In this document: positions 40,458 through 60,412 of the stretch, one piece after another
Numbering within the stretch: position 1 is the stretch's first letter
Layout: every line of letters starts with the position of its first letter
Assembly (NCBI RefSeq): GCF_007066085.1
Contig: NZ_CP041405.1
Location: forward strand, 4,171,001-4,235,000
From: Paenibacillus thiaminolyticus
Lineage (GTDB): Bacteria > Bacillota > Bacilli > Paenibacillales > Paenibacillaceae
DNA length: 64,000 nt
Reading direction: 5' to 3'
Notes under the pieces: generated by a model
The model's input: only the letters and a program-made list of their open reading frames with translations
Database searches by the model: none
Told to the model about the DNA's origin: nothing
Program-made: the position numbers and the translations under genes

Positions 40458-40509
40458 TTGACACGTTCTCTATTAAGAACTAAACTAGGTAATATCGTTC
40501 TTAATAAAG
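40458..40509 (+). promoter_or_regulatory. eps promoter with SinR-type operator in the spacer
   Basis: TTGACA (40458-40463), a 17-bp spacer and TAAACT (40481-40486). The spacer is filled by the inverted repeat GTTCTCTATTAAGAAC (40465-40480), whose left arm is an exact SinR half-site GTTCTYT. A further half-like GTTCTTAATAAAG starts at 40497, near the expected transcription start. A repressor bound here would exclude RNA polymerase. A sinR gene lies at the end of the same locus. Confidence 0.75.
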
Positions 40510-40541
40510 TTAAATCCGTGATTAGGCAGGTGAACTTCGTG

Positions 40542-41282
40542 ATGAACGATGAATCATTCACATCCGACGGCAAGATGGCGGTCAGAGAAATTAACTTGAA
40601 GGAAACATACGGTGTCCTTCAACGGCGTTGGTGGATCATTCTCGTATCTATCATCATTTGTGGCGTGTTGGGCGGTCTTTATGTTTCCAGGCCGAAGCCG
40701 GACGTGTATGCATCTTCAGCACGTATTATCCTGTCTTCCAGTGAAATAAACATGAGAGGGACTATGCTGGTCATGATCCGCGAACCGATCGTGATGGAGC
40801 GCGTGATCAAGGAATTGGGGTTGAGGCAGTCGCCCGAAAGTTTGCGAAAACAGATCTCCGTAACCAGCGTCGATAACTCATTCGTTACTTTGGTGACGGC
40901 TTTCCATGAACATCCCGGGCTGGCGGCTCACATCTCGAATGCGGTTGTCGAGGCTTTTAAGCAGGTGGCAGCCGAACGTTTAAAGTTTCATGGCGTAATC
41001 CTGCTAAGCGGAGCCAAAGAGGATCCCAACCCCGTTCCCGTGAATAAGCCGAGCTATGCAGGGCTGTATATTGCCCTGCTTGCAGGGGCCATTGCAGGCG
41101 TGGGCCTTATCTATGTGATGGATTCGCTGGACGGCTCCATACGTTCGGCGCGCGAATTGGAGAGATTGCTGGGATTGCCGGTACTGGGGCAAATGGACTG
41201 TGTGCGCAAAAGGGAGATCCTTCGCACGATGAAGAGCGAGACCATAGGTCATGGGGGAAGTGGTGAATCCCTTGGCACATGA
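40542..41282 (+). CDS. epsA: Wzz/EpsA-type chain-length and co-activator protein
   Basis: 246 residues. An N-terminal membrane helix (RRWWIILVSIIICGVLGGLYV), a short extracellular part, and a C-terminal helix (GLYIALLAGAIAGVGLIYVMD) followed by SIRSARELERLLGLPVLGQ. This is the YveK/EpsA/CapA layout, which controls polymer length and activates the partner BY-kinase. ATG 40542 is chosen for its AGGTGA site. First gene of the eps transcript. Confidence 0.88.
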   Translation: MNDESFTSDGKMAVREINLKETYGVLQRRWWIILVSIIICGVLGGLYVSRPKPDVYASSARIILSSSEINMRGTMLVMIREPIVMERVIKELGLRQSPESLRKQISVTSVDNSFVTLVTAFHEHPGLAAHISNAVVEAFKQVAAERLKFHGVILLSGAKEDPNPVPVNKPSYAGLYIALLAGAIAGVGLIYVMDSLDGSIRSARELERLLGLPVLGQMDCVRKREILRTMKSETIGHGGSGESLGT

Positions 41283-41925
41283 GCAGAATCGTTCCAACCC
41301 TATACTCGTGGATTACAGCACGATAACTTATCATCATGCCTCTTCAGCCCAAGCGGACCAATTTCGCGTTCTGCGCAACAATATTCTGTTTGCGGTTACG
41401 GACGCCCCGTGTGCTTCGTTGGCGGTTACCTCGCCCCGGCCGGGAAACGGGACGACGACGGTGGCCGTCAATCTCTCCATTGCTTTCGCCCAGCGCGGCG
41501 ATCGGGTGTTGTTGATTGATGCCAATGTTCGGCGTCCGGCCATCCACCGGATTCTGAACGTGAAGGCTGGCCCGGGGCTGGCAGAGGCTGTGGGACAGCG
41601 AGCGGTTATTGAGGAAGTAATCCAAGAGACTCCGATTGAGAACCTGTGTGTGATATCCAGTGGCTCATCGGTTACGGAGCTGCTGGATTTATGCGATTCA
41701 TCGTTCATGGACCGGCTTGAGCTGACACAGGATTTTGATATCGTTCTGGTGGATTGCCCGTCCGTGCTGTCGGCCAGTGAAGCCAGTGTGCTGGCCAGCG
41801 GATGCAGGGCGACCTTGCTCGTGATTGAGAACGGCAGGACGTCTGCCGAGGATGCGCTTGAGGCCAAGAGGCTGCTGGAGTTCGGGCATGTCCGAATTGC
41901 GGGCACGTTTTTCAATAAAAAGTGA
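41251..41925 (+). CDS. EpsB-like BY-kinase with a lost Walker A lysine
   Basis: 224 residues like CapB/EpsB/YwqD bacterial tyrosine kinases that regulate capsule export. Walker A' (VLLIDANVRRPAIHRI) and Walker B (DIVLVDCPSVLSASEA) are recognisable. The Walker A region, normally PGEGKS/T, reads PRPGNGTTT, so the ATP-binding lysine is Thr68. The C-terminal tyrosine cluster is absent too: the protein ends FFNKK. It is therefore probably a pseudokinase or structural partner. The start overlaps the wzz 3' end by 32 nt; GTG 41263 is an alternative. Confidence 0.82.
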   Translation: MGEVVNPLAHEQNRSNPILVDYSTITYHHASSAQADQFRVLRNNILFAVTDAPCASLAVTSPRPGNGTTTVAVNLSIAFAQRGDRVLLIDANVRRPAIHRILNVKAGPGLAEAVGQRAVIEEVIQETPIENLCVISSGSSVTELLDLCDSSFMDRLELTQDFDIVLVDCPSVLSASEASVLASGCRATLLVIENGRTSAEDALEAKRLLEFGHVRIAGTFFNKK

Positions 41926-42010
41926 TCAGATACATGGTAAGTGCGGGTTCTGCATATCGTTTTGTTCGTTATTACGAACGAATTGGCCACACAAGAACAA
42001 TGGGGAAGGG
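41926..42010 (+). ncRNA. Candidate EAR (eps-associated RNA) antitermination element
   Basis: In B. subtilis a structured leader called EAR lies exactly here, between epsB and epsC, and promotes antitermination along the eps operon. This ~85-nt gap is short and structured: a GATA...TATC closing pair around GTGCGGGTTCTGCAT, then GTTCGTTATTACGAAC (perfect 6-bp stem, 4-nt loop), then TTGGCC. I recognise the position and the presence of helices, but not the covariation, so this is a proposal. Confidence 0.45.
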
Positions 42011-42022
42011 GGAGTGAGCGTA

Positions 42023-43855
42023 TTGACTTACAAGCAAAGGCTTTCGCTGCTCGCCATGCTGGATTCGCTTATCGTCCTGTTATCGATTTACATCAGTTAT
42101 TTTCTCGTGTCCGCGAACGTCATGGTATTCGCGGACCCGTTGATCGTAACTTCTTCCGTCGCGCTGCTGCTTGGATATCATCTGTTTGCTTTTGTGTACA
42201 CCTTGTATAAGAAGGCGTGGGAATACGCCAGCATAGGTGAATTGATCGGCATCGTCAAAGCGGTCACGCTGTCTATTGTCACGGGTGTGGCGGTTCAATA
42301 CATAGCTGTTCAGGAATTTCATGTACGGTTAATGGCTGTGACCTGGATGATCATGATGATCCTGATTGGGGGTTCGCGGTTTTGCTGGCGCTTAATGCGC
42401 AATGTTACCCCCAAGCAGGAGCAGCGAAGCCTGTACAAACGCACCTTGATCGTGGGCGCCGGCTCGGCGGGAACCATGGTGGCAAGGCAATTGCTTCATT
42501 CCCCGGATCAGGATATGAGGCCGGTGGCTTTTGTAGACGATAATCGGCACAAACATGGCTTGGACGTGTTGGGGGTTCCCGTCGTCGGCGGCACGCGTGC
42601 CATCGAACAGATTGCCAGGGACTATCAGATTGAACTTATTGTCATCGCCATCCCCTCTCTCGACAAACCCGGGCTGAAGGCTATTTTCGATGAGTGTGCG
42701 AAAACCAAGGCCAAAACCCAAATTATTCCCATGATTGAGGATATCGCCAGCGGCAAGGTGTCCGTCAGCCAGTTCAGGGATGTGCAGGTGGAAGATCTGT
42801 TGGGAAGGGAACCTGTGGAGCTTGATCTGGCAAGCATCAGCGATTGTGCAACAGGCAAAGTAATCCTGGTGACGGGAGCCGGCGGCTCTGTCGGCTCGGA
42901 AATATGCAGGCAAATATCGAATTTCAATCCTCGCAAGCTGATCCTTCTCGGGCACGGGGAGAACAGCATTTATTCCATTGAGATGGAACTCCAAAACCTT
43001 TTCAAGGATAAAAGCATTCAATTCTATACGGAGATTGCGGATTTGCAGGACGAGAGCAAAATTGTCCGCGTATTGAACAAGCACAGACCGGATGTCGTCT
43101 ATCATGCCGCAGCCCATAAGCATGTTCCGCTGATGCAGCGGCACCCGGAGGAAGCGGTGAAAAACAATGTTATCGGCACTTTGAATGCGGCCAAGGCCTC
43201 CAGTCAGGCAGGCGTTTCGACGTTTGTTATGATCTCTACCGACAAAGCCGTCAATCCGACTAACGTCATGGGCGCAACGAAGCGGATCGCGGAGATGATC
43301 ATTCAATACATGGACGAAATAAGCCCCACCACATTTGTAGCTGTGCGCTTCGGAAATGTTCTGGGAAGCCGGGGGAGCGTCATTCCGCTGTTCAAAAAGC
43401 AAGTCGAACGCGGGGGACCGGTCACGGTCACCCATCCGGATATGGTGCGTTATTTTATGACGATTCCGGAAGCCTCGCGTCTCGTTATTCAGGCCGGGGC
43501 TTTGGCCCGGGGCGGCGAGATTTTCGTGCTGGACATGGGCGATCCGGTGAAAATCGTGGATTTGGCCAAAAATGTGATTCGCCTGTCGGGATATTCCGTT
43601 GAGGAAATCGGAATCGAATTTACGGGGATCCGCCCGGGCGAGAAGCTGTATGAGGAGCTTTTGACAGAAGGCGAAATACATGAGCAGCGGGCATATCCCA
43701 AAATTTATATCGGGAAGTCTTCGCAGGTCAACTTCAAGGAAATCGAGTATCTGTTGCAAGTATACGACAAGCTGCCTGCTGATGAATTGAAACAGATGCT
43801 CCTTGATCTGGCCAACAAAAAAGTGAAGCCGAGGGAGCTAGTAAAGACGAGTTAG
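42023..43855 (+). CDS. epsC: EpsC-type UDP-sugar 4,6-dehydratase (CapD/PglF family)
   Basis: 610 residues. Four N-terminal membrane helices, a CoA-binding-like Rossmann domain ([18 protein letters not shown], 138-270) and an extended SDR domain. The SDR domain carries [37 protein letters not shown] (the catalytic Met/Lys variant of YxxxK) and [10 protein letters not shown]. Likely makes UDP-4-keto-6-deoxy-GlcNAc, the first step to N-acetylbacillosamine. TTG 42023, 8 nt after GGGGGAG, gives the usual family length. Confidence 0.92.
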
Positions 43856-43869
43856 ACCGGGAGGTGAGC

Positions 43870-44763
43870 ATGGTAATGAGCAAGGTGAAAAAAGCTATCA
43901 TACCGGCGGCCGGACTTGGTACGCGTTTTCTGCCGGCTACGAAGGCAATGCCTAAGGAAATGCTTCCTGTCGTGGATAAACCAACGATTCAATATATCGT
44001 AGAGGAGGCCGTCGAATCCGGAATCGAGGATATTATTATCGTGACGGGCAAAGGGAAGCGCGCCATTGAAGATCACTTTGATAATTTCCTGGAGCTGGAG
44101 CAGGTGCTGTTCCAAAAACAAAAGCTGGATTTATTGAGCGAAGTACAGAAGCCGGCTCAGATGGTGGACATTCACTACATCCGGCAGAAAGAACCGAAAG
44201 GACTTGGGCATGCGATATGGTGCGCGCGCAAGTTCATAGGTAATGAGCCGTTCGCTGTCCTGCTTGGTGACGATATCATTACCGCGGAGAAGCCTTGCCT
44301 CCAACAGATGATGGAAAAGTACGACAGGTATCATTCATCGATTATCGGAGTCCAGCGCGTAAGAGATGAAGAGGTGTCACGCTATGGAATCGTGGACGGC
44401 ATCAAAGTGGAGGAAGCGCTGTATCAAGTGAAGCATCTGGTGGAAAAGCCGCAGCAAGGCACGACGCTGTCCAATCTGGCCATTATGGGAAGATACATAC
44501 TGACACCGGAGATTTTCCGTATTTTGGCCCGGCAGGCCCCCGGCGCCGGCGGCGAGATTCAGTTGACGGACGCATTAGACACCCTGAATCAGGCGGAAGC
44601 GGTGTATGCTTACCAATTTGCCGGAACCCGCTATGACGTGGGCGAGAAAATGGGATTTATTCAGACAACGATTGAATTTGCCTTACAACGCGACGATCTC
44701 CGCGGTGATCTGCTGAACTATATGTCCCATGTCCTGGCGAGGGAGACCGTGAATGTCGAATAA
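43870..44763 (+). CDS. galU: UTP-glucose-1-phosphate uridylyltransferase
   Basis: 297 residues with [43 protein letters not shown] and VEKP..., all GalU hallmarks. Makes UDP-glucose for the polysaccharide. Lies between epsC and the first glycosyltransferase; there is no galU at this position in B. subtilis eps. Downstream galE (58563) can turn its product into UDP-galactose. GGGAGG site 5 nt before the ATG. Confidence 0.94.
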
Positions 44764-45913
44764 AATACTGTTCTGTGCCACGGTCGATTATCATATAAGC
44801 TCGTTCCATATGCCCGTGCTTCATTGGTTCAAACAACGGGGATGGGAGATTCATATCGCGGCGAAAGGCGAACTGGAGCTTCCGGCTGCAGACCGGAAGT
44901 TCGACATCCCCTTTGAACGTTCTCCCTTTCGCTGGCGGAATCTTGAAGCCTACCGGCAGGTAAAGCGGCTGATCGAGCATCATGGTTATCAGATTGTGCA
45001 TTGCCATACCCCGGTGGGCGGTGTTCTGGCGCGTCTGGCCTCAAGACGTGCCCGGAGACAGGGGGCGCAGGTCATTTATACGGCGCACGGGTTTCATTTC
45101 TGCAGAGGTGCGCCGCTAATCAATTGGATGCTTTATTACCCGGTGGAGAAGCTCTTGGCCCGTTCGACCGATTGTCTCATTACGATCAATCAGGAGGACT
45201 ACCGGTTGGCCGTTCGCCGGCGCTTCAAGGCGGGGCGTATTGAGCATGTGCATGGGGTTGGCGTGAGCGGCGAACGTTTTTATCCGGCACTTCCGGAAGA
45301 CAAGGCAAGCCTGAGAGAGCGGATGTCATTCGATCGGAATGATATTTTATTATTTTATGCGGCCGAGTTCAACCGCAACAAGAATCATCAGCTGCTTATC
45401 CATGCCTTGGCCCGAATACGGGAGCGGGCCCCGCAAGTAAGACTGCTCTTGGCGGGAGAGGGCGCGTTGCTGGAAGCCTGCAAAAGTGTATCCGTGAAAT
45501 TGGGCGTGGATCGGCATGTTCACTTTCTCGGGTATCGGAACGATATTCCCAATCTGCTGCATATGAGTGACATTGCCGTCTCCGGCAGCTTGAGGGAAGG
45601 ACTGCCGGTTCAGATGATGGAGGCGATGGCCTGCGGGCTTCCGGTCATCGCCACCCGGAACCGAGGGCATCTGGAGCTGGTATGCGACGGACGGAACGGT
45701 TATATTGTTCCTCCTCAGGCTGCTGAGCAATTGGCGGAACGCATCGCAACCCTTGCGGCTTCCGCTGACCTGCGGGAGAACATGGGGAGGGAAAGTCTTC
45801 AGATGTTCCGGAAGTATGAGCAGAAGGCGGTTCTCCATGAGCTGGGGCTGATCTATGAATCCCATATGCACAACTTGACGGAAGGGGAGGAAAAAGCATG
45901 TCAGGTCCTGTAA
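44753..45913 (+). CDS. GT4-family glycosyltransferase (EpsD-like)
   Basis: 386 residues, GT-B fold. N-terminal acceptor half ([27 protein letters not shown]) and a GT4 donor half with the EX7E-type site [25 protein letters not shown]. Start overlaps the galU stop by 11 nt; the 3' end overlaps the next gene by 16 nt. The AHGFHF segment is found in EpsD/YveN-type enzymes. Adds a sugar to the lipid-linked repeat; donor unknown. Confidence 0.9.
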
Positions 45914-47007
45914 GAGTGCTCCATGCGGTCGTCAATATGAACCGGGGCGGGGCGGAGACCCTGATCATGAATTTGTACCGCAACCTGGATCGAAGCAAGA
46001 TTCAGTTCGATTTCCTCACCTGCAAGCCGGGGGTATACGACCGTCAAATTGAACGGATGGGCGGCAAGATATACCGGATTCCGTATATTTCAGGCGTTGG
46101 CGTCATAGGGTATTGGCAGGCATTGAGCAGCTTCTTCAAGGATCATGCCGGCTACAGACTCATTCACGCTCATATGGACAAGATGAGCGGTTGGGTTCTG
46201 AAGGCGGCGCGTCAGGCAGGCATTCCCTGCCGCATTGCGCACAGCCATAATACGAGGAGCGAAGGAGGCTTGGCCGCCAAGGCATTCAAATGGTACGCGG
46301 GCCAAAGCATATCTTCATCGGCAACTCATCTCTTGGCCTGTTCGCAAGCCGCTGCCTGTTGGCTCTTCAAGCACAGTTCAGACACGGCAGGCATCGTGAA
46401 GAATGGAATAGAACAAGAGCGTTTTTGCTTCCGTTCCGAAGTAAGGGATGCCGTGAGAAAGGAGTTGGGGATTGGCGAGAGCGCCTTTGTTCTGGGGCAT
46501 GTCGGTCGCTTCCAGCATCAGAAGAATCATGCGTATCTGATTGATGTGTATGCCAAGGCGAGGCCCATGCTGAACGACTCCGTGCTTCTTCTGGCAGGTG
46601 ATGGTCCGCTGCGCGATGAATTGCAGCGCCAGACGGAACGTTTGAAGCTGGAGAACAGCGTGCGTTTTCTGGGCGTGCGAAGCGATATCGACAGATTGCT
46701 TCAGGCATTGGATCTGTTTGTTTTTCCCTCGCGCCATGAGGGCCTGCCGTTGACGTTGGTCGAAGCTCAAGGGGCAGGACTTCCCTGCATTATTTCGGAT
46801 AACGTCACGCGGGAAGTTGATCTGGGGCTGGGGCTAATTCAGTCTCTATCCTTAAAAGATCAGCAGGCTTGGGTGGAACGGGTGTTTGAAGCTGCCCGCG
46901 CCGGCGCCGGCAGGGAGATTCCAGCGGATGCCCTGCGGATGCAAGGGTATGATATCCGCGACACCGCACGCTGGCTTGAGAATTATTATTTATCGATGGT
47001 GAGGTAG
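45898..47007 (+). CDS. GT4-family glycosyltransferase (EpsF-like)
   Basis: 369 residues. NMNRGGAETLIMNLYRNLD at the N-terminus (donor-site glycine loop), HAHMDKMSGWVL, AHSHNTRSEGG, then PSRHEGLPLTLVEAQGAGLPCI for the EX7E motif. The match to EpsF (YveP) is close in layout. Overlaps both neighbours, so co-translated. Confidence 0.9.
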   Translation: MSGPVRVLHAVVNMNRGGAETLIMNLYRNLDRSKIQFDFLTCKPGVYDRQIERMGGKIYRIPYISGVGVIGYWQALSSFFKDHAGYRLIHAHMDKMSGWVLKAARQAGIPCRIAHSHNTRSEGGLAAKAFKWYAGQSISSSATHLLACSQAAACWLFKHSSDTAGIVKNGIEQERFCFRSEVRDAVRKELGIGESAFVLGHVGRFQHQKNHAYLIDVYAKARPMLNDSVLLLAGDGPLRDELQRQTERLKLENSVRFLGVRSDIDRLLQALDLFVFPSRHEGLPLTLVEAQGAGLPCIISDNVTREVDLGLGLIQSLSLKDQQAWVERVFEAARAGAGREIPADALRMQGYDIRDTARWLENYYLSMVR

Positions 47008-47008
47008 A

Positions 47009-47884
47009 ATGCGAACATTAACGGTATTTACCCCGGCATATAACCGTGCTTATTGCTTGACGCGCTTGTATGACAGCCTCGTCAGACAGAACAGCGGCGA
47101 TTTTGAGTGGCTTGTGATTGATGACGGATCTACCGATGAGACACCGGAACTGGTCCGGGCCTGGATTGCGGACAACCGGATTCCTATACGTTATGTCCGT
47201 CAGGAGAATCAAGGCATGCATGGAGCGCATAACACGGCTTATGACCAGATTGAGACCGAGCTGAATGTGTGTATCGACTCCGATGATTATATGCCTGACG
47301 GCGCGGTGGAGAAAATTATAGATTTCTGGCGCAGATACGGCAGTGATCAGGTAGCCGGCATCGTTGGCCTGGATTGCGCACTGGACGGAACCGTGATTGG
47401 GACGCGGCTTCCGGAAGACAAGGCAAGATCCACGCTGTTCGATCTGTACAACAAGCACGGCGTTACGGGCGATAAAAAGCTGGTGTACCGCACGAAGCTT
47501 ACGAAAATGTACCGCTATCCCCTGTTTGAAGGAGAAAAGTATGTTGGATTGGCCTATAAGTATTACATGATTGACCGCGAGTATGAGCTGCTGCTGATGA
47601 ATGAAGTCTTGTGCTATGTAGAGTACATGCCGGATGGGGCTTCCCGGAATATGCTGCGCCATTATCGCAATAATCCGAGGGGATTCGCCTTCTATCGCGT
47701 TCAGCTTATGAAGCTCCCTTTCGCGGGACTTTTCTTCAAATTCAGACAAGCGGTGCATCATGTCTCAAGCTGCTGCCTGGCCCGCAGTCCGGCCATGCTC
47801 CTGGAGTCGCCCGCAAAGCTGCTTACCTTGTTGGCGCTGCTGCCCGGATTTGCGCTTTATGTATTTATCGTAGCAAAGACGTAG
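47009..47884 (+). CDS. GT2-family glycosyltransferase
   Basis: 291 residues, GT-A fold. FTPAYNRAYCLTRLYDSL and WLVIDDGSTDETPELV form the nucleotide site, and CIDSDDYM holds the DxD metal motif. A GGVTGDKK-like acceptor segment follows, then a hydrophobic C-terminal helix that may anchor it. Two nt after the previous stop. Confidence 0.92.
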   Translation: MRTLTVFTPAYNRAYCLTRLYDSLVRQNSGDFEWLVIDDGSTDETPELVRAWIADNRIPIRYVRQENQGMHGAHNTAYDQIETELNVCIDSDDYMPDGAVEKIIDFWRRYGSDQVAGIVGLDCALDGTVIGTRLPEDKARSTLFDLYNKHGVTGDKKLVYRTKLTKMYRYPLFEGEKYVGLAYKYYMIDREYELLLMNEVLCYVEYMPDGASRNMLRHYRNNPRGFAFYRVQLMKLPFAGLFFKFRQAVHHVSSCCLARSPAMLLESPAKLLTLLALLPGFALYVFIVAKT

Positions 47885-47914
47885 CGTGTGATTGGATGGG
47901 AGAGGAACCCTGCG

Positions 47915-48988: not shown

Positions 48989-49001
48989 GGGGGCAAAGGG
49001 C

Positions 49002-50362: not shown

Positions 50363-50374
50363 AGGAGTCGGCAG

Positions 50375-52197: not shown

Positions 52198-52252
52198 TAA
52201 CTTAGGTCCCTCCTCTAGTTAAGGTGAATCGGGGAAGAATGGCAGTAGGATA

Positions 52253-52272
52253 TTGTTCTTTAATAAGAACAA
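52253..52272. promoter_or_regulatory. SinR-type palindrome in the divergent region
   Basis: TTGTTCTTTAATAAGAACAA: 8-bp arms, 4-nt centre, left arm an exact GTTCTYT. A partial GTTCGTTAA lies at 52287. A minus-strand TATAAT (52272-52277) overlaps its edge and could serve the epsM-like gene. Together with the palindrome at 40465 this marks both halves of the eps locus. Confidence 0.7.
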
Positions 52273-52327
52273 TTATAGATTGTTTTGTTCGTTAAAGCGA
52301 GCGATATCTGACTGAAGGAGTAAGTTC

Positions 52328-53512
52328 ATGGAGAAGTCCCTTATCTTGGACACAGACATGCTGACGAACGAAATGAAGTTGATTCTGGAGATTATTACAA
52401 GTGATCGTCCCGAGGATTTGCGCAAGGACAAAGCCGGGCTCTTCAAGGACTGCAAGTGGGATGCATTTTTACGCCTTGCGATGCATCACCGAGTCTATTC
52501 CGTGCTGTATATGCAGATGAAGGATATGGGCGATGATATGGTGCCTCCGGCGGTCATTCAACGTCTGTACCGCCAATATTGCGCCAATACGCTCCGAATG
52601 CTTCATCTGAGCAGCGAGATCGAACATATCGGCAAGGAATTGACCGGAAGAGGTCTGCGTTGTTTATTTTTGAAGGGACCTGTGCTTGGCCAGGATTTAT
52701 ATGGAAGTGTCTCGCTTCGCACCTGCTCGGATCTGGATCTCCTCGTTCCCTTGGCCGAATTAGTTCGGGCGGAAACGATACTTATCACGCTAGGGTACGA
52801 GAAAGATGACTACATTGAGTCCGTACTGGGGGACTGGAAATGGCGGCACCACCATCTGACCTTTTTTCACCCGGTCAAGGGCATCAAGGTTGAGCTTCAT
52901 TGGCGGCTGAACCCGTTCCCGTCCAAGGAACCGAAATTTAACGAGTTGTGGCTCAGGAAGCGAAGAAGCACGCTGTTCGGCAGCCCGATCTATTATTTGG
53001 GAAGAGAGGATTTGTTCGTCTTTCTCGTGACCCACGGAGCCCGCCACGGCTGGTCGCGACTGCGCTGGCTGCTCGATATCAAGCAGCTTCTTAACCAACA
53101 GCCGGATCACGGCCAGATCATGAATAGATTGAGGCGTCGCCGGTGTGTGCGTGCCGGGGGACAATCTGTCGTCCTGGCATCGTCGCTGCTTCAAGCGCCG
53201 TTAGCGCCGGAACTGCAGCAGCTTGCAAGCAGGCGTAGATCGGTGCGGCTGGCCCAGGGCGCCATGTTCTATCTGTCGCAGATGGTTCATCTCCATAAGG
53301 AGCCGATACCTGAAGAAGTCGGAGCCTACCATAAGCGCCATCTGTTCGCGTTAATGCCGCTGCGGCATAAATGCTTGTTCATTCTAAGCTTCATGATGCC
53401 TTATCCCGAGGATGTCAAGGTCATTCGATTGCCGAGAATGCTTCATTATATCTATATTCCCTTAAGGCCCTTCTTGTGGGCGTGGAGGAAAAGCGTGGGT
53501 GTACAGAAATGA
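52328..53512 (+). CDS. Nucleotidyltransferase-fold protein (PF14907 type)
   Basis: 394 residues. Family hallmarks FLKGPVLGQDLYGSVSLRTCSDLDLLVP with metal Asp135 and Asp137, then KVELHWRL and HGARHGWSRLRWLLDIKQLL. The biochemical role is not established; relatives occur in polysaccharide loci and in some lasso-peptide clusters. Good AAGGAG site. First gene of the second eps unit; ATGA overlap with the next. Confidence 0.88.
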   Translation: MEKSLILDTDMLTNEMKLILEIITSDRPEDLRKDKAGLFKDCKWDAFLRLAMHHRVYSVLYMQMKDMGDDMVPPAVIQRLYRQYCANTLRMLHLSSEIEHIGKELTGRGLRCLFLKGPVLGQDLYGSVSLRTCSDLDLLVPLAELVRAETILITLGYEKDDYIESVLGDWKWRHHHLTFFHPVKGIKVELHWRLNPFPSKEPKFNELWLRKRRSTLFGSPIYYLGREDLFVFLVTHGARHGWSRLRWLLDIKQLLNQQPDHGQIMNRLRRRRCVRAGGQSVVLASSLLQAPLAPELQQLASRRRSVRLAQGAMFYLSQMVHLHKEPIPEEVGAYHKRHLFALMPLRHKCLFILSFMMPYPEDVKVIRLPRMLHYIYIPLRPFLWAWRKSVGVQK

Positions 53513-54711
53513 AAAGAGTACTGTTCGCATCCTTCGATATGGAGGTTGGAGGAGTTGAGAGAAGCCTGGCTGGTTTGCTGGAGCATTTTGATTATGAACG
53601 CTATCAGGCGGAGCTGATGCTGTATCGCCATCAAGGCGATTTTATGCCTTTGCTCCCCGAACAAGTCCGGTTGCTGGAGGAGCAACGAGCCTATGCCACC
53701 TTCCGCAAGTCCATCGGCGACATTATCAAGAGCCGGCAGCTGCTGATCGGCCTCGGAAGGCTGACCGCAAAAGTGCATGCCGATATGGCCGGGAAAGCGA
53801 GAGGGTGTGCAGAAACGGGATATCATCAGATGCAGCTGATGTGGAGATATACCCTTCCCTTCCTGCCCCGGAACAAACAGCTCTACGATGCGGCTGTAAG
53901 CTTCTTATGGCCCCATTACTACGTTGCCGAGAAAGTCGATGCCCGCACGAAAATAGCCTGGATTCATACGGATTATTCGACCGTGGCTACGAATGTGCAC
54001 TCGGATTTGAAGCTGTGGAGCAAGTTCGATCATATCATCGCCGTATCTCCTTCATGCAGGGAAGCCTTCTTGGCAAAGTACGGAACCCTGAGAGACAAGG
54101 TGACGGTCATCGAAAACATTATCTCTCCGGACTACATCAAGATGATGTCCGAGGTGTCTGTTGATTCACCGATGGCAGCGGATCCGCGCTTCAAATTGGT
54201 CACCGTCGCCCGTTTGTCGCACGCCAAGGGAATCGACCAGGCTGTCATGGCCTTGAAGAAGCTGAGAGAGAAGGGGCTTGAGGACATTGCCTGGTATGTT
54301 GTGGGTTATGGCGGGGACGAGGAGATGATTCGCGGTCTCATTGCGAAGAATCGGCTGCAGGAGGATTTCATTTTGCTGGGCAAGCAGTACAATCCCTATC
54401 CTTTCATCAAGCAAGCCGATCTCTATGTACAGCCTTCCCGTTACGAGGGGAAAGCCGTGACCGTAACCGAAGCCCAGATTTTGAGCAAGCCTGTTCTGAT
54501 TACCCGCTATCCTACGGCACAGAGTCAGGTTGCCGACGGCAAGGACGGATATATTACGGACTTATCGGTCGAGGGCTTAGCGGAAGGGATTGAGCATTTA
54601 TATCGAGATCGGCAGCTAAGAGGCCGGCTCGCGGACATGTGCAGCAGGACTCAGTATGGCAATGCGGGCGAACTCAATAAACTATACGCATTGTTGGATG
54701 ACAATGGATAG
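53509..54711 (+). CDS. GT4-family glycosyltransferase
   Basis: 400 residues starting at ATG 53509. FDMEVGGVERSLAGLLEHF at the N-terminus, DYSTVATN, then VARLSHAKGIDQAVMALKKL and PSRYEGKAVTVTEAQILSKPVLIT in the donor half. Cytoplasmic. The start codon overlaps the upstream stop as ATGA. Confidence 0.9.
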   Translation: MKRVLFASFDMEVGGVERSLAGLLEHFDYERYQAELMLYRHQGDFMPLLPEQVRLLEEQRAYATFRKSIGDIIKSRQLLIGLGRLTAKVHADMAGKARGCAETGYHQMQLMWRYTLPFLPRNKQLYDAAVSFLWPHYYVAEKVDARTKIAWIHTDYSTVATNVHSDLKLWSKFDHIIAVSPSCREAFLAKYGTLRDKVTVIENIISPDYIKMMSEVSVDSPMAADPRFKLVTVARLSHAKGIDQAVMALKKLREKGLEDIAWYVVGYGGDEEMIRGLIAKNRLQEDFILLGKQYNPYPFIKQADLYVQPSRYEGKAVTVTEAQILSKPVLITRYPTAQSQVADGKDGYITDLSVEGLAEGIEHLYRDRQLRGRLADMCSRTQYGNAGELNKLYALLDDNG

Positions 54712-54722
54712 GAGGCGAGGCT

Positions 54723-55694
54723 ATGGATAACATCCTGCTGCTCGACACCTCAGTCGGTTCCTTGAATAAAGGGGATGAAATCATCATGAAATGCGTGAGG
54801 CGCCAATTGTCTGGTATTACGAGCCAGGCCAATGTGTTTACCGTGCCCACACATCTTTCCCCCTTCGGCTGGTTCCAGGTGATGCGAGATTCATTACGTG
54901 TTCAATTCTATACAAGAGCCAAATACAAGTTTGTCGGCGGAACGAATCTATTGACCATGGACATGTTCACCCATTTCCCGCAATGGAATATTAATGTGTT
55001 TAATTATCGTCCGTTACAAGGCAGCATTCTCCTGGGGGTGGGGGCGGGCAAAGGAGAAAAAATAAAACGGTACACGAAAATGCTGTACCGCAAGGTGTTG
55101 TCCCATGAATATGTGCATAGCGTTCGAGATGAACGAACCTGGAGATTCGTCACGGATTTGGGGCTCAAGGCGTTAAATACGGGATGTCCGACGATGTGGG
55201 CGTTAACGCCCGAGCATTGCCAGGATATTCCCAAGGGGAAATCGGATGCCGTCGTGTTTACGTTGACAGATTACGCAAGAGCGCCCCGTCAAGATCAGCT
55301 ACTGATCGATCTTCTGATTAGAAGCTACAGGAAAGTATATTTCTGGGTTCAGGGAGCCGATGATTATGCGTATTTTCATACGTTATCGAATACCGCAAGC
55401 ATTCACGTCATTCCTCCTTCGCTGGAAGAATATGAAGCTGTGCTCAGCACGGATGTCGACTTTGTAGGCACGCGCCTGCACGCCGGAATTTATGCGATGC
55501 GTCACAAGAAACGTTCCATCATTATTGCGGTTGACGAACGGGCCAGAGGAATGAGTGAGACATACGCCCTGAATACCGTTGACCGTACGGATCTCGCCGG
55601 CCTTGAAGCCATGATCCATTCGGAATTCGCGACGAATGTCCGGATGAACCTGGAGGCCATCCAAGCGTGGTTGGATCAGTTCAAGCAGCGGTAA
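54723..55694 (+). CDS. Polysaccharide pyruvyl transferase-family protein
   Basis: 323 residues. NILLLDTSVGSLNKGDEIIMKCV (the opening GD motif of PF04230), FVGGTN, GVGAGKG, HSVRDERTW and the C-terminal FVGTRLHAGIYAM typical of the CsaB/EpsI/EpsO family. Likely adds a pyruvate ketal to a sugar, giving the polymer negative charge. GGAGGC site. Confidence 0.88.
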   Translation: MDNILLLDTSVGSLNKGDEIIMKCVRRQLSGITSQANVFTVPTHLSPFGWFQVMRDSLRVQFYTRAKYKFVGGTNLLTMDMFTHFPQWNINVFNYRPLQGSILLGVGAGKGEKIKRYTKMLYRKVLSHEYVHSVRDERTWRFVTDLGLKALNTGCPTMWALTPEHCQDIPKGKSDAVVFTLTDYARAPRQDQLLIDLLIRSYRKVYFWVQGADDYAYFHTLSNTASIHVIPPSLEEYEAVLSTDVDFVGTRLHAGIYAMRHKKRSIIIAVDERARGMSETYALNTVDRTDLAGLEAMIHSEFATNVRMNLEAIQAWLDQFKQR

Positions 55695-55718
55695 TATCGG
55701 TCTTGAAGGAGGAAGCCC

Positions 55719-56984
55719 ATGATACAACTGACGCGGGAACAAATCAAAGTAAATCATAACCGTGTGGACTATTTTTTTCAGGTGGACCCCAGGCTTCAAA
55801 AATACTTCAGAGCAAGCAATCATTTATTCATGAAATATAACTATGATATCTCGGGTCTTCCAGCAAGCATATTGTCGATTCCGTTTGCGGCGAACATGAT
55901 GCCGCTCGCGTGGCTTACGGATGCGACGCTGTACGTCGACGAACTGGATCGTTCCTTCTATGACTGTCTTGCGGAACTGAAGCAGGCATATCAGGAGATG
56001 TTCCCCCATTTCCCGCTCAAGGGGCAAATCAAGGTCGGGCAGGTTTCTTCCTATCATTATCAACCGGAGCATGAAGCTGCCGTGCTATTTAGCGGGGGAT
56101 TGGACGCATTGACGACCTATATCCGTCACCGGGATAAGAAGCCTTTGCTCATTACGGAGTACGGATGGCATGAAGGGGACTGTACAGACAGCGAGGTATG
56201 GACGGCAGACCGTGAGCATGCGGAAGCTTTTGCCCGCAAGGAAGGGCTCTCCAATATCCTGGTGGAGTCCAACTACGGCACCTTCGTCTATCCTCAGCGA
56301 ATCGACCGGGATTTCCGGCGCCCGCTGGGGGACACCTGGTGGCATGGACTGCATCACGGTCTGGCGATTATATCGGCTGCGGTTCCTGCAGCCTGCTTGT
56401 TACAGGTGAAAACGGTTTACATTGCGAGCTCGCATACGATCGGCAACACGTATTCATGTGCTTCCGACCCATCGACGGACAATCTGATTCGTTACGGAGC
56501 GGGCGATGTGTTCCATGACGGATACGAGCTGTCCCGGCAGGATAAAGTCAAAGTGGTTGTGGATCACTATGCCGCTGCCAATGACAAGACCGCCGTCCGG
56601 GTATGCTATCGCAACACAGAAAACTGCTGCCAATGCGAGAAGTGCGTAAGAACGATCATGGGGATTGCGGCAGAGGGCCATGACCCGAATGACTACGGTT
56701 TTCCGGTGCCTGATGAGCTCTCCGGTTTTCTGAAGCGGTTTTTGAAGCGGGAGGTCAAGTTTTTCACGAATATCCAAATCGAACGGTTATGGAAGCCGAT
56801 CCAGGAGCGCATGCGGGAGAACCCTGACAACGTGAAGGATCAGGATCTGCTGTCTTGGTTTCCGGAGTACGATTTTGTGGCCCAGCGAAGAAAAGAACGG
56901 TTCCGCTACCGTGTAACGCAATTTTTCCCAATCATTAGAAGGAAAGTGAGAACGGGTTTGCAGCAAATCCGTGAAACCAGGTAA
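55719..56984 (+). CDS. Unassigned PP-loop (ATP pyrophosphatase) protein in the eps locus
   Basis: 421 residues. AAVLFSGGLDALTTY (residues 120-134) is an SGGxD PP-loop as in ATP-dependent amidating/thiolating enzymes and QueC-like proteins. YGTFVYPQRIDRDF and SSHTIGNTYSCASDPSTDNL follow, and near 296-309 a CYRNTENCCQCEKC cluster (Cys296, 303, 304, 306, 309) that could hold zinc. The last ~110 residues are basic. There is no signal peptide. I do not recognise a characterised family; perhaps it adenylates a sugar-linked carboxylate for amidation. GGAGGAAG site. Confidence 0.85.
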   Translation: MIQLTREQIKVNHNRVDYFFQVDPRLQKYFRASNHLFMKYNYDISGLPASILSIPFAANMMPLAWLTDATLYVDELDRSFYDCLAELKQAYQEMFPHFPLKGQIKVGQVSSYHYQPEHEAAVLFSGGLDALTTYIRHRDKKPLLITEYGWHEGDCTDSEVWTADREHAEAFARKEGLSNILVESNYGTFVYPQRIDRDFRRPLGDTWWHGLHHGLAIISAAVPAACLLQVKTVYIASSHTIGNTYSCASDPSTDNLIRYGAGDVFHDGYELSRQDKVKVVVDHYAAANDKTAVRVCYRNTENCCQCEKCVRTIMGIAAEGHDPNDYGFPVPDELSGFLKRFLKREVKFFTNIQIERLWKPIQERMRENPDNVKDQDLLSWFPEYDFVAQRRKERFRYRVTQFFPIIRRKVRTGLQQIRETR

Positions 56985-57000
56985 AAGAGCAGGTACAGGG

Positions 57001-58563
57001 ATGAGAATTCGAAATTCGCTTTATAACATTTTTTTTGGTCTGCTGGGGCAAGCCATTAGCACCATAATGGGTTTTGTCGTTAGAACGGTTTTTATATGGA
57101 CACTTGGCGTTGAGTATCTGGGAGTGAGCGGCTTGTTTTCCGATGTGCTCATGCTCCTGTCTCTAGCCAATCTCGGTTTTGAGACGGCCATCATTTACAG
57201 CTTGTATCAACCTCTTGCCGATCGGGACGAGGCCAGGATAAAAGCTTTTATGCATTTATTTCGAAAAGCCTATCTGTTCATAGGTATGCTTGTGCTCGTG
57301 CTGGGGCTTTCCCTGATTCCTTTTCTTGATGTTTTCATTCAGGGGGAAACGACGGTTTCTCATATCGAAGTCATCTATGTGTTATTTCTGCTCAATTCCG
57401 TGTCTACCTACTTCTTCGCTTACAAACAGGCCATCATTGTGGCCGACCAGCAGCAGCATGTGATATCGCGAATCCATAGTGTGTATGTGATTGCCATGAA
57501 CACGATCCAGATCATCGTGCTTCTCTGTTCGAAAAACTACATTCTATTCCTTGTGATCCAAATTGGAATGAGCGTTCTTAGAAACAAGTATATTTCCCGT
57601 GTGGCAGACCGAAAGTACGAATTCCTGAGGGAGCCGGTCAGCACTCCTTTGGACAAAGGAGAGAAGAAGACCTTTTTTCAGAACCTGCGCTCCCTGCTTA
57701 TGTACAAAGTGAGCGGCGTTGTCATCAATGGGACGGATAATCTGATTATTGCCAACCTATTTGGCGTCATATGGGTCGGATTGTATTCCAATTATTATTT
57801 GATTCTGACAACCTTAACTACATTTGTGAGCTATTTCTTCTATTCTCTAACGGCCAGCGTGGGGAATTTGAACGCTACGGAGGATAAGGAGAAGAAGTTT
57901 TTCTTCTATCGTGTGTTACGCTTGGCCAATTTTTGGGTGTTCGGGCTTAGTGCCGTATGTTTGTGGAATTTGCTTGATCCCGTGATTATTTTATGGCTCG
58001 GAGGTTCTTTTGTCCTCGGCAAGGAGACCTTGCTTGCGATCCTGCTCAATTTTTATACGACGGGGATGCAAAATGCTTCGACCATGTTCCGGGATACGAC
58101 GGGCATGTTCCGAAGGGGAAGGTACAGCCCGTTGATCGCAGCGGCAATGAACATCGGATTATCGATTACGCTTGCACGCTTCATCGGGATGCCGGGAGTA
58201 TTCCTCGGAACAGTCATTAGCCGATTGCTAACCTATTTTTGGGTTGATCCTTATTTGCTTCATAAGCACGTATTCTTGCAACCGCTGCGCCCTTATTTTA
58301 CCCGTTACGCACTGCATGCCGTGTTAGTTCTTCTGGCGGCATCCTTATGCGGCTGGCTTGCAGGATTACTCACGCTGCCGCTGTTATGGGATATCGCCGT
58401 CAGGGTCCTGCTGTGCCTGTCCGTAACGAACCTGATCTTCTATGTGTGCTTTCGCAAATCGAGCGAGTTTATCTACTTAACGAACATAGCCAAGGCGAAT
58501 ATGGGAAAGCTGCCGATCCTTACTAAATTCAATCCGGTCATACGGAGAGAGGAGACAAGGTAA
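57001..58563 (+). CDS. epsK: Wzx/EpsK-type oligosaccharide flippase
   Basis: 520 residues with 12-14 hydrophobic helices of the MOP/PST superfamily: NSLYNIFFGLLGQAISTIMGFVVRTVFIWTLGVEYLGVSGLFSDVL... and NGTDNLIIANLFGVIWVGLYSNYY. Moves lipid-linked repeat units to the outer leaflet for EpsG. Start at ATG 57001 is uncertain (weak site); a GTG at 56971 is worse. Confidence 0.9.
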   Translation: MRIRNSLYNIFFGLLGQAISTIMGFVVRTVFIWTLGVEYLGVSGLFSDVLMLLSLANLGFETAIIYSLYQPLADRDEARIKAFMHLFRKAYLFIGMLVLVLGLSLIPFLDVFIQGETTVSHIEVIYVLFLLNSVSTYFFAYKQAIIVADQQQHVISRIHSVYVIAMNTIQIIVLLCSKNYILFLVIQIGMSVLRNKYISRVADRKYEFLREPVSTPLDKGEKKTFFQNLRSLLMYKVSGVVINGTDNLIIANLFGVIWVGLYSNYYLILTTLTTFVSYFFYSLTASVGNLNATEDKEKKFFFYRVLRLANFWVFGLSAVCLWNLLDPVIILWLGGSFVLGKETLLAILLNFYTTGMQNASTMFRDTTGMFRRGRYSPLIAAAMNIGLSITLARFIGMPGVFLGTVISRLLTYFWVDPYLLHKHVFLQPLRPYFTRYALHAVLVLLAASLCGWLAGLLTLPLLWDIAVRVLLCLSVTNLIFYVCFRKSSEFIYLTNIAKANMGKLPILTKFNPVIRREETR

Positions 58564-59591
58564 TGGCCATTTTGATCACGGGTGGCGCCGGTTATATCGG
58601 AAGCCATACTTGCGTAGAAATGCTGGAGGCGGGATATGATATCGTCGTTCTTGATAATTTCTCCAACAGCCATCCGGAAGCGATTCGTCGGATTTCGGAT
58701 ATTACGGGCAAAGGATTTGCTTTTTATGAAGCGGATCTTCTCGACGAGCAACGCTTGAATCGGATATTCGAGGGACATCGCATCGATGCCGTGATCCATT
58801 TTGCCGGCCTGAAAGCGGTTGGGGAGTCGGTTCAGGTGCCGCTTGAATACTACCATACGAATCTTACCAGCACGCTGGTTCTGTGCAGGGCGATGGCCAA
58901 GCATGGCGTGTACAGCCTGGTATTCAGCTCATCCGCCTCGGTGTATGGGGTACCGGAATGTGTTCCCATTTCGGAGGAAGCCAGCCTTGGGGCGGTGAGT
59001 CCCTATGGAAGAACCAAACAAATGATTGAGCAAGTACTGCAGGATCTGGCTTCTTCTGACCCGAGATGGGGAATTTCCATTCTCAGATATTTCAATCCCG
59101 TCGGTGCACATAAAAGCGGAAAGATCGGAGAGAGCCCTAATGGGACGCCTAACAATTTAATGCCGTTTATTACGCAAGTAGCTGTGGGGAGATTGCCGTC
59201 GCTTAAAGTATACGGCTCCGATTACCCTACAAAAGACGGTACGGGAATCCGAGATTATATTCATGTCGTGGATTTGGCGCAAGGCCATCTGAAAGCATTG
59301 GAGCATTTGGATCATATAAATGGGGTCGAATTTTACAATCTGGGTACAGGCCGGGGGTTTACGGTGCTGGAGATGATCCATTCCTTCGAGAAGGTGTCGG
59401 GGATTCAGATTCCCTATGAAATCGTGGGGCGAAGACCAGGGGATATCGGGATATGCTATGCTGATCCGACAAAGTCCCATATAAGCCTGGGGTGGTTCCC
59501 GAAATACGGCATTACCGACATGTGTGAAGATAGCTGGAATTGGCAGGTTCATAATCCGCAAGGTTATTGCGAGAGGATCACGGCCGGGTAA
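58563..59591 (+). CDS. galE: UDP-glucose 4-epimerase
   Basis: 342 residues. Rossmann ILITGGAGYIGSHTCVEML, SSSASVYG, catalytic Tyr/Lys in SPYGRTKQ and RYFNPVGAHKSGKIGE are textbook GalE. Interconverts UDP-Glc/UDP-Gal for the exopolysaccharide. Its ATG overlaps the flippase stop by 1 nt. Last structural gene of the locus. Confidence 0.95.
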   Translation: MAILITGGAGYIGSHTCVEMLEAGYDIVVLDNFSNSHPEAIRRISDITGKGFAFYEADLLDEQRLNRIFEGHRIDAVIHFAGLKAVGESVQVPLEYYHTNLTSTLVLCRAMAKHGVYSLVFSSSASVYGVPECVPISEEASLGAVSPYGRTKQMIEQVLQDLASSDPRWGISILRYFNPVGAHKSGKIGESPNGTPNNLMPFITQVAVGRLPSLKVYGSDYPTKDGTGIRDYIHVVDLAQGHLKALEHLDHINGVEFYNLGTGRGFTVLEMIHSFEKVSGIQIPYEIVGRRPGDIGICYADPTKSHISLGWFPKYGITDMCEDSWNWQVHNPQGYCERITAG

Positions 59592-59599
59592 TCATCGAA

Positions 59600-59667
59600 T
59601 TCGACAAAACTAGTGCTCCAGAGACGACATACTATGACACCATGGAACGTCAAATGTCGTGTATAAT
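59600..59667 (+). promoter_or_regulatory. sinI promoter region with Spo0A-type box
   Basis: The reverse complement of 59600-59609 is TTTTGTCGAA, an exact Spo0A (0A) box core. A TATAAT at 59662-59667 would be the -10 of sinI, and a partial AATGTCGT lies at 59654. In B. subtilis sinI is activated by Spo0A~P, so placement fits. A 13-bp near-palindrome TACTTAATAAGTA (59670-59682) sits at the likely start point. Confidence 0.6.
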
Positions 59668-59783
59668 ACTACTTAATAAGTATATATTAGGAAACGATGA
59701 AATGCGCCTTTTTTGTCTGGGCACTTTAGGCGTGTGGAGTTAGTGGTGCAACCGGCCGAGTAAATTCGGGAGGCAATGCAATC

Positions 59784-59954
59784 ATGGTTGAAGCGGTTAC
59801 AGGTAACAATGAACAATTGGACAAGGATTGGGTAGCTATTATTTTAACTGCACGACAAATGGGCCTTTCCATTGCGGACATTCGTAAACTTCTTCGCGAT
59901 TTTCAGGCACAGTCTGATCCTGAATGGCCGCTCCATGTCAATTCAGAAGCATAA
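59784..59954 (+). CDS. sinI: SinI-type antirepressor (short gene)
   Basis: 56 residues. The central part EQLDKDWVAIILTARQMGLSIADIRKLL (from residue 10) follows the B. subtilis SinI pattern ELDQEWVELMVEAKEANISPEEIRKYL. The conserved Leu12, Asp13, Trp16, Ala23, Ser29 and the I-R-K helix match the SinI/SinR dimerisation surface. It has no helix-turn-helix. GGGAGG lies 10 nt before the ATG. It faces sinR across a shared terminator rather than lying upstream of it as in B. subtilis. Predicted to bind SinR and release the eps operators. Confidence 0.85.
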   Translation: MVEAVTGNNEQLDKDWVAIILTARQMGLSIADIRKLLRDFQAQSDPEWPLHVNSEA

Positions 59955-59977
59955 CTCACGATTGTTGACATTATCGA

Positions 59978-60047
59978 AAAGAAATCTCCTTCGTTGAGGC
60001 ATGTTTACAGATAACGCGCGGTGAACTCAACAATCGGAGATTTCTTT
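59978..60047. terminator. Bidirectional terminator between sinI and sinR
   Basis: AAAGAAATCTCC/GGAGATTTCTTT (12 bp) plus an inner CGTTGAG/CTCAAC pair. T-rich flanks on both strands (TTTCTTTATTTT on +). Confidence 0.75.
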
Positions 60048-60076
60048 ATTTTGGGCTGCGTCAACGCTAGGGAGCA

Positions 60077-60412
60077 TCATGACTCTTCGCGTGTTAGCTT
60101 CCACTTATTATATTCCAGAAATTCTTTGAATTGCTCTTTACTTACGCCAGAAGCCATCGCTTCTTTTACGAGATTAGTCCATTCTTCGTCCAACACCTCA
60201 GCTTCATTCGAAGCTTCCTTGTCTTGCAGCAGCTCCTCAACTGAGACCCCGAGAATAACACTAATCTTCTCCAGAAATTGAATGGAAGGATTCTGCTGAA
60301 TTCCTCTTTCAATTGAGCTTAAATAGGATTTTGCGACACCTGCTCTTTCGGAGAGTTCTGACAGTGAGTAATTTTTCTTCCTTCGAAGGATTTGAATCCG
60401 TTCTCCGATCAT
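60077..60412 (-). CDS. sinR: SinR-type biofilm master repressor
   Basis: 111 residues, the same length as B. subtilis SinR. XRE helix-turn-helix at 1-62 with SLSELSERAGVAKSYLSSIER as recognition region (AGVAKSYLSSIER is identical, as I recall it, to B. subtilis), then NPSIQFLEKISVILGVSVEELL. The C-terminal SinI/tetramer domain EEWTNLVKEAMASGVSKEQFKEFLEYNKW also matches. GGAGG site. Palindromes with SinR half-sites occur at both eps control regions. It is transcribed toward sinI, just downstream of the lasso operon. Confidence 0.95.
   Translation of the reverse strand: MIGERIQILRRKKNYSLSELSERAGVAKSYLSSIERGIQQNPSIQFLEKISVILGVSVEELLQDKEASNEAEVLDEEWTNLVKEAMASGVSKEQFKEFLEYNKWKLTREES

Follow-up and report, generated by a model that had tools for sequence, protein, structure and literature searches.

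What does a SinR repressor control, and what acts on its antagonist SinI, when the genes for the two proteins face each other between two operons? The question is raised by a stretch of 64,000 nucleotides from the soil bacterium Paenibacillus thiaminolyticus (NCBI RefSeq assembly GCF_007066085.1, contig NZ_CP041405.1, positions 4,171,001 to 4,235,000 of the forward strand, or C1:4171001-4235000), which we refer to as the window and which belongs to a genome of a single contig of 6,612,442 bases. In the window, sinI (plus strand) and sinR (minus strand) are convergent and are flanked by 2 converging operons that both carry candidate SinR operators, the eps operon on one side and a lasso-peptide operon on the other. 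We propose that Spo0A and cyclic di-GMP (c-di-GMP) raise the level of SinI, which would free the eps and lasso promoters from SinR, and we put the probability of this reading at roughly three in four.

The gene at 60077 to 60412 on the minus strand, which an earlier note on this DNA had called a SinR homolog, encodes 111 amino acids that align end to end with the SinR protein of Bacillus subtilis (PDB 1b0n, E 1.2e-38), and the stretch AKSYLSSIER in the helix-turn-helix (HTH) domain is identical in the 2 proteins. Both domains scored above their cut-offs, with 56.8 against 23 bits for HTH_3 and 57.1 against 31.4 bits for the C-terminal SinI domain. The 56-amino-acid product of the open reading frame (ORF) at 59784 to 59954 on the plus strand was rightly taken for SinI, since it passed the SinI-domain model PF08671 (32.0 against 31.4 bits), and the identification is backed by synteny and conservation. 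With only 23 bits against the 80 demanded by the NCBIfam equivalog NF046031, it is a divergent SinI and not the Bacillus equivalog. The 2 proteins are the sole SinI-domain matches in the genome. Many other genomes likewise carry small SinI-like ORFs close to sinR; among the 80 named sinR loci compared here, which comprise 1,558,217 bases in total, there were 39, of which 25 were convergent with sinR. The pooled pN/pS values across 4 close genomes were 0.05 for sinR and 0.42 for sinI, the latter based on few changes.

Two palindromes of SinR half-sites had been reported in the earlier note, and both were recovered at the same coordinates. The first, GTTCTCTATTAAGAAC (40465 to 40480, candidate operator 1a), exactly fills the 17-bp spacer of the eps operon promoter on the plus strand (40458 to 40486, with TTGACA at 40458 to 40463 and TAAACT at 40481 to 40486), which was assigned from the sequence and an alignment of 4 genomes. 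The second, GTTCTTTAATAAGAAC (52255 to 52270, candidate operator 2a), is located between the divergent eps genes epsM and ntp5. When the genome was searched for the 16-bp pattern GTTCTN6AGAAC, as the note had proposed, exactly 3 copies were found in 6.61 Mb, at window coordinates 40465, 52255, and 66220, all within 26 kb of each other, against 9 copies of a reversed control pattern. The third copy lies 2.2 kb beyond the end of the window in front of lasC (candidate operator 3a, 66220 to 66235).

A second GTTC half-palindrome follows each of the 3 palindromes at an offset of 32 bp in the 3' direction, namely the imperfect GTTCTTAATAAAGTTA (40497 to 40512, candidate operator 1b), the imperfect GTTCGTTAAAGCGAGC (52287 to 52302, candidate operator 2b), and candidate operator 3b (66252 to 66267). 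The offset of operator 1b is the same in the relatives G001, G007, and G011, and across the 12 sites in the 4 close genomes the offset is 32 bp at 9 and 31 bp at 3. It corresponds to about 3 helical turns, a spacing that would fit a SinR tetramer bound along the same face of the DNA. A probable fourth operator, GTTCGTTATTACGAAC, lies between the genes for the tyrosine kinase and the EpsC-like protein (41964 to 41979); it is a perfect palindrome with 2 mismatches to the core sequence, and with 1 mismatch in G001 and G007. The second half-palindromes, the likely fourth site and the third operator, together with the lasso operon and the sinI leader riboswitch described below, go beyond what the note had contained.

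It is the position of the palindromes, and not their number, that constitutes the signal. The 80 named sinR loci contained 83 exact palindromes with a 6-base spacer, distributed over 41 loci, compared to 0 to 3 copies for each of the other spacers from 0 to 12 bases and a single copy of the reversed control. In the close genomes, 4 of 5 (G001), 4 of 9 (G011), and 4 of 7 (G007) exact copies were located at the same locus. Counts alone showed no enrichment of the exact palindrome in 60 relatives, with 0 to 19 copies per genome against 0 to 16 for the reversed control, or of the one-mismatch palindrome genome-wide (217 versus 280 for the reversed control), and distant matches were therefore not taken as further SinR targets. 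GTTCTYT half-sites occurred near chance level in the window (16 versus 10.9 expected) and were not used as evidence alone. In a genome-wide search of both strands for further double sites of the form GTTCN8GAACN15-16GTTC, 8 matches were found against 2 for the reversed control, of which 4 look like chance matches and the other 4 are the 3 operators already known, the lasso operator being counted on both strands. The 16-bp geometry is that of the SinR site of B. subtilis kinB, with half-sites at -57/-51 and -48/-42 (PMC5733473), and inverted repeats are bound about tenfold better by SinR than single sites (PMC3163267). The sequence data suggest that the palindromes are SinR operators.

On the eps side, we surveyed 10 divergent genomes for palindromes that were either exact or contained 1 mismatch with an AT-rich core. 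All 10 genomes had a palindrome directly upstream of wzz, with an exact match in 9, and another marking the 5' end of ntp5, with an exact match in 2 and 1 mismatch in 8; in 5 of the 10, the ntp5 palindrome was located as much as 33 bases into the longest called ORF. Between the genes for the tyrosine kinase and EpsC, palindromes were found in 8 of the 10 genomes, all with 1 mismatch, and further palindromes were located before galE or elsewhere. In total, the 390,000 bases from these 10 relatives contained 53 such sites, compared to 2.0 expected from first-order Markov sequences.

The lasso operon reads toward sinR on the minus strand in the order lasC-lasA-lasK-lasB1-lasB2-lasD and ends 67 bp before sinR. 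The gene for the precursor, lasA (64104 to 64238 in window coordinates, past its end), matched the paeninodin-family model NF033524 with 55 against 27 bits, the gene for the PqqD/RRE protein, lasB1 (62758 to 63057), matched NF033536 with 121.5 against 80 bits, and the gene for the leader peptidase, lasB2 (62300 to 62761), matched NF033537 with 102.1 against 33 bits. The PadeA-family precursor and the B1 and B2 proteins, all above their cut-offs, place the operon in the paeninodin family. The best family for the cyclase gene lasC (64253 to 66193 in window coordinates, likewise past its end) was the exception-type lasso cyclase model NF033535, below the cut-off of which it scored (356.4 versus 525 bits). 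The gene lasK (63054 to 63995) encodes a HPr-kinase-like peptide kinase for which the kinase models gave at most 45.7 bits, below their cut-offs, and lasD (60480 to 62303), the last gene of the operon, encodes an ABC exporter.

To study whether the operator in front of lasC goes with SinR, we compared 110 of the 241 genomes of the family that had a lasC match, this one included, drawn from among the matches listed and with a single lasC each; the sample is not random, and many of the genomes are close kin. They were divided into 34 genomes with sinR near lasC, 35 with sinR elsewhere, defined as a different contig or a distance of over 400 kb (the matches listed did not include the place of sinR in G217 and G267), and 41 without sinR, meaning no match at E <= 1e-15 when only the best candidates per genome were scored. 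Five genomes of the last class were rechecked with PF08671, again with no match. An exact palindrome within 600 bp upstream of lasC was present in 33 of the 34 genomes with sinR nearby, in 21 of the 35 with sinR elsewhere, and in 1 of the 41 without sinR, while shuffled sequences gave expectations of 0.00, 0.02, and 0.03. If up to 1 mismatch is allowed, the numbers are 34 of 34, 33 of 35, and 1 of 41 (0.63, 0.51, and 0.37 expected). The 3 classes are interleaved in the LasC tree, where the classes with sinR nearby and without sinR need 4 changes each, at least 2 of them required by branches with good support; descent within a single LasC clade is therefore not enough to explain where the palindrome occurs. 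Only the interleaving was used from this tree, which has 1 bad row (L136) and several long branches and in which support is below 80 at 13 of the 47 inner branches. The named loci gave a similar picture, with 31 lasC genes above 300 bits in 29 of the 80 loci; at the 5' end, 24 of these genes carried an exact palindrome, and 27 did if 1 mismatch with an AT-rich core is included. In L111, L119, L122, L128, and L132, sinR was part of a short lasB1-lasB2-sinR arrangement that is immediately preceded by a palindrome.

It could be argued that the operator at lasC serves only the autoregulation of sinR as the last gene of the transcript, the lasso genes being passengers. The distance of 67 bp in the window would agree with such a role, as would the 20 of the 80 named loci in which lasD or lasB2 ends less than 500 bp upstream of sinR. 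Yet the palindrome persists where lasC is not linked to sinR, in the proportions given above, which speaks against pure autoregulation. Furthermore, lasC is divergent from sinR in 9 named loci (L117, L121, L123, L124, L125, L136, L140, L141, and L143), and sinR has a possible -10 sequence of its own (TATAAT, 60447 to 60452, minus strand), which is kept in the 4 genomes. We consider autoregulation alone an unlikely explanation.

Another possibility is that the palindromes are read by a different regulator of the XRE type, such as an SlrR-like paralog, and not by this SinR. The genome contains 14 SinR matches, counting sinR itself, and in 7 of the 10 divergent relatives, unlike in the window, a second SinR-like gene was located just upstream of wzz, with a palindrome before each. 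However, only one SinR in the genome has a SinI domain, all 3 exact palindromes flank its gene, and the presence of the palindrome at lasC follows the presence of sinR, and we judge it very unlikely that another regulator is the reader. The second SinR-like genes, found in G396, G340, G362, G375, G354, G368, and G376, may encode an SlrR-like partner.

The input to sinI was examined in the same manner. A c-di-GMP-II riboswitch aptamer was identified at 59681 to 59766 on the plus strand (Rfam RF01786, 73.0 bits against a gathering threshold of 53.5), the sole Rfam match above gathering in the window. Being placed between the -10 sequence of sinI (TATAAT, 59662 to 59667, kept in the 4 genomes) and the Shine-Dalgarno sequence GGGAGG (59768 to 59773), which directly follows it, the aptamer constitutes the 5' leader of sinI. 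A search of 394 genomes of the family, run with stricter filters, gave 86 matches to RF01786 in 58 genomes, of which 43 matches in 40 genomes were on the strand opposite to sinR and less than 600 bp from its 3' end (102 to 314 nt). Counted by sinR genes of the high-identity type (E down to 3.1e-37), the riboswitch was present at 43 of 62. Two matches, G337 C2:553464-553547 and G350 C1:1494122-1494205, were located beside sinR but on its own strand.

A model built from 8 leaders gave 28 matches in the 80 named loci, of which 26 were at the sinI position with more than 76 bits, including 7 loci that had been used to build the model; the other 2 were a weak match beside sinR in L114 (49.3 bits) and a match elsewhere in L159. 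In an alignment of 28 sequences fitted to the RF01786 structure, a procedure that favors that structure, 13 of 20 base pairs had changed on both sides, compared to 8.5 in shuffled alignments, none of 500 of which reached so high a number, and 4 of 5 pair measures exceeded every shuffle.

The alignment indicates that the C-run at the 3' end of the aptamer has 2 alternative pairing partners, the G-run on the 5' side of the closing helix and the G-rich Shine-Dalgarno sequence. The predicted mean probability that the Shine-Dalgarno sequence is unpaired, calculated without the pseudoknot, rose in the window from 0.15 in the free leader to 0.60 with the aptamer helices enforced, and an increase was predicted for 15 of 18 leaders, with a mean change from 0.33 to 0.66. 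From the alternative pairing and the folding, we infer that the riboswitch is an ON switch for c-di-GMP. The opposite arrangement, an OFF switch or a switch acting by transcription termination, whereby c-di-GMP would lower SinI, could be argued from the fact that the expression platform was deduced from folding only and that 3 of the 18 leaders lack the predicted gain. It is nevertheless rather doubtful in view of the 15 leaders that gain accessibility and of the higher sinI expression that accompanied high c-di-GMP levels in Bacillus thuringiensis, according to deposited array data cited in PMC7793685.

A still simpler explanation would be that the locus holds a plain SinIR-eps circuit of the B. 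subtilis type, for which the eps operators alone would suffice, and that the lasso operon and the leader RNA are unrelated neighbors. This we regard as highly improbable, considering the third exact palindrome at lasC with its sinR-dependent distribution, the score of the leader well above the Rfam gathering threshold, and the recurrence of the riboswitch at related sinR genes.

The second input to sinI would be Spo0A. As claimed in the earlier note, the reverse complement of positions 59600 to 59609, upstream of the sinI -10 sequence, is an exact match (minus strand) to TTTTGTCGAA, which we take to be the 0A box bound by Spo0A. The genome encodes one Spo0A above the family cut-off, with 413.8 bits. 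When the 250 bp upstream of sinI were searched on both strands for the heptamer TG[TA]CGAA, 20 of 40 loci contained it, compared to 2.43 expected. The 20 comprised 18 of the 26 loci with a convergent sinI, the window among them, which all shared one orientation of the heptamer, and 2 of the 14 other loci; TTCGACA was present in this orientation in 17 of the 25 convergent named loci and in the window. TGTCGAA by itself occurred near chance level in the window (9 versus 8.1 expected) and was not used as evidence alone. The 0A box fits a sinI promoter that would be activated by Spo0A.

These observations can be combined as follows. A SinR tetramer bound to paired 16-bp palindromes, about 3 helical turns apart, would repress the eps, epsM/ntp5, and lasso promoters. 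Phosphorylated Spo0A (Spo0A~P) would turn on transcription of sinI, and binding of c-di-GMP would hold the 3' strand of the aptamer in the closing helix, where it is not paired with the Shine-Dalgarno sequence, allowing SinI to be translated. SinI would then pair with SinR and free the promoters, and the matrix polysaccharide and the lasso peptide would be produced together. Since sinR follows lasD by only 67 bp, read-through between them would add a negative feedback by SinR.

Several observations weigh against this proposal. The genomes compared are mutually related and partly drawn from the top of the match list, the SinI protein passed the Pfam cut-off only narrowly, and 8 of the 26 convergent loci have no 0A heptamer. 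No exact palindrome was found within the stretch examined in 39 of the 80 named sinR loci, and the gap before sinR in the window contains no palindrome, the best match having 5 mismatches. In the divergent relatives, 1 mismatch was present in 8 of the 10 ntp5 sites and in all 8 sites between the genes for the tyrosine kinase and EpsC. Furthermore, the genome G301 (locus L212) keeps an exact palindrome at lasC without any SinI-domain match; its LasC protein is nearly identical to that of G247, which carries sinR, and a recent loss of sinR therefore fits this case.

The remaining counterpoints concern the leader. The riboswitch was not found at 19 of the 62 related sinR genes, the number of further pair types was close to that in the shuffled alignments (30 versus 28.3, the former being reached in 140 of 500), and pairing in the outer closing helix was only 55% in the 28 sequences. 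The unconstrained leader was no more stable than shuffled sequences (z -0.46), a z-score that is uninformative here. The 3 leaders that go in the opposite direction in the accessibility calculation, in which the pseudoknot is ignored, include L107 from Paenibacillus sp. 2.1, the closest named relative of the window (the same genome as G007), and enforcing the aptamer fold without ligand costs 4 to 24 kcal/mol in stability relative to the free fold.

We passed 35 of the 80 named loci through Rfam itself, including 28 of the other sinR loci. In 18 of the 28, a SinI-type ORF was preceded by a c-di-GMP-I or c-di-GMP-I-GGC aptamer, of a class whose structure is unrelated to that of class II, and in all 18 the LDxEW-like motif of the ORF started 47 to 74 nt after the aptamer. 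No aptamer before sinI was found by Rfam in the other 10 (L131, L134, L145, L151, L158, L167, L172, L178, L180, and L181), of which L158 from Bacillus glycinifermentans is the sole B. subtilis-group locus. In L148, a second c-di-GMP-I-GGC riboswitch (12049 to 12131, plus strand) was located about 2 kb past sinR, in addition to the one before sinI. A link between c-di-GMP and sinI has precedents in the B. thuringiensis data cited above and in a putative c-di-GMP riboswitch before sinI in Bacillus methanolicus MGA3, noted in an RNA-seq survey (PMC4342826). That report covers a single species and gives no class in its passages on the riboswitch, whereas the riboswitch described here is of class II and recurs across the Paenibacillaceae, with class I in the same place in the Bacillus-type genera. 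A literature search, which left out most subscription journals, found neither the breadth of the link nor the presence of 2 classes in print, nor any paper joining a lasso peptide with SinR.

The B. subtilis-type control is the parent kind of this system, with which it shares a SinR protein with HTH and SinI domains, SinI as the antagonist, eps as a target, 16-bp inverted GTTCTYT operators, and Spo0A control of sinI. It differs in the convergent orientation of sinI and sinR, the riboswitch in the sinI leader, and the lasso operon with an operator. The TasA family (PF12389) had no match in the genome, while a control search with the same family detected B. subtilis. In L158, the sinI-sinR genes are in tandem and convergent with a target operon, tasA-sipW-tapA, in which tapA is preceded by palindromes with 1 mismatch. 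The convergent placement of sinI and sinR at the end of the operon that they should control, which the earlier note had singled out, is real, but sinIR genes beside a target operon are not new in principle. The Spo0A-SinI-SinR-eps wiring described in that note is supported by the sequence and the comparisons, with a single Spo0A, the 0A heptamer at most convergent sinI genes, and palindromes at wzz and ntp5 in every divergent relative, but the circuit was not complete, since both the c-di-GMP input and the lasso output were missing.

A secondary metabolite in the place of eps in a SinR regulon has been described in B. thuringiensis, where SinR controls the lipopeptide kurstakin, which is linked to biofilm (PMC3909190). 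Paeninodin-family lasso and LPP clusters have been reported within capsular polysaccharide loci, with the same genes A, C, K, B1, B2, and D and the same position as here (PMC13381572); SinR does not occur in the main text of that paper, and what we add is the operator and its link to sinR. New are the convergent sinI and sinR between 2 operons with operators, the class II riboswitch as input, and the lasso peptide as output.

The eps locus spans 40.4 to 59.6 kb of the window, and some of its gene names reflect similarity of context only. It begins with wzz for a chain-length determinant (40542 to 41282, plus strand, start codon chosen by eye; Pfam Wzz 32.6 bits, scored on 40503 to 41282) and the gene for an EpsB-like tyrosine kinase (41251 to 41925, plus strand; TIGR01007, 120.4 bits against a cut-off of 108.05). 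The first eps block (41825 to 52197), with a similar order in relatives, contains the genes for an EpsC-like protein (listed from 41825, start codon not settled), GalU, glycosyltransferases, Wzy, EpsL, and EpsN on the plus strand, and epsM in reverse (51541 to 52197). Thereafter follow ntp5 for a PF14907 nucleotidyltransferase (52328 to 53512, plus strand, 206 bits) and the second eps block (53371 to 59591, plus strand), with the genes for a glycosyltransferase, a pyruvyltransferase, a 421-amino-acid protein, the Wzx flippase, and GalE, before sinI and sinR are reached. The sinI and sinR stop codons are separated by a segment with 2 nested perfect inverted repeats (59959 to 60047) with arms of 12 and 10 nt, of which the 12-nt arms, AAAGAAATCTCC and GGAGATTTCTTT (59978 to 59989 and 60036 to 60047), are fully complementary and form a putative terminator on both strands; the inner repeat reads like a two-way terminator. 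Rfam epsC RNAs (RF01735) were found within the eps loci of L148 (6415 to 6526, minus strand) and L172 (18202 to 18311, plus strand), with no match in the window.

A PF14907 gene is located between lasD and lasB2, inside the lasso operons, in L147, L160, L162, and L173. Because of this placement, the substrate tailored by the ntp5 product in the window may possibly be the lasso peptide and not the polysaccharide. An NTP-transferase, LppN, also belongs to the related LPP clusters (PMC13381572).

Taken together, we lean toward the view that SinI is controlled by c-di-GMP across much of the Bacilli, through 2 unrelated riboswitch classes that settled independently before the same gene, class II in the Paenibacillaceae and class I in the Bacillus-type genera, with neither present in the only locus of the B. 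subtilis group that was examined, and that paeninodin lasso peptides are products of the matrix program under SinR. If this is true, the occurrence of 2 unrelated classes in front of one gene would amount to a clear example of convergent regulation, easily missed from work on B. subtilis. The riboswitch would join 2 biofilm systems, c-di-GMP and Spo0A-SinI-SinR, in a single transcript. The role of the paeninodin lasso peptides was stated to be unknown, and a role in biofilms untested, in a 2026 paper (PMC13381572), and it now becomes testable: the operator at lasC, which tracks sinR, predicts that lasso output rises with matrix output when sinR is lost, a loss for which G301 would provide a natural experiment.

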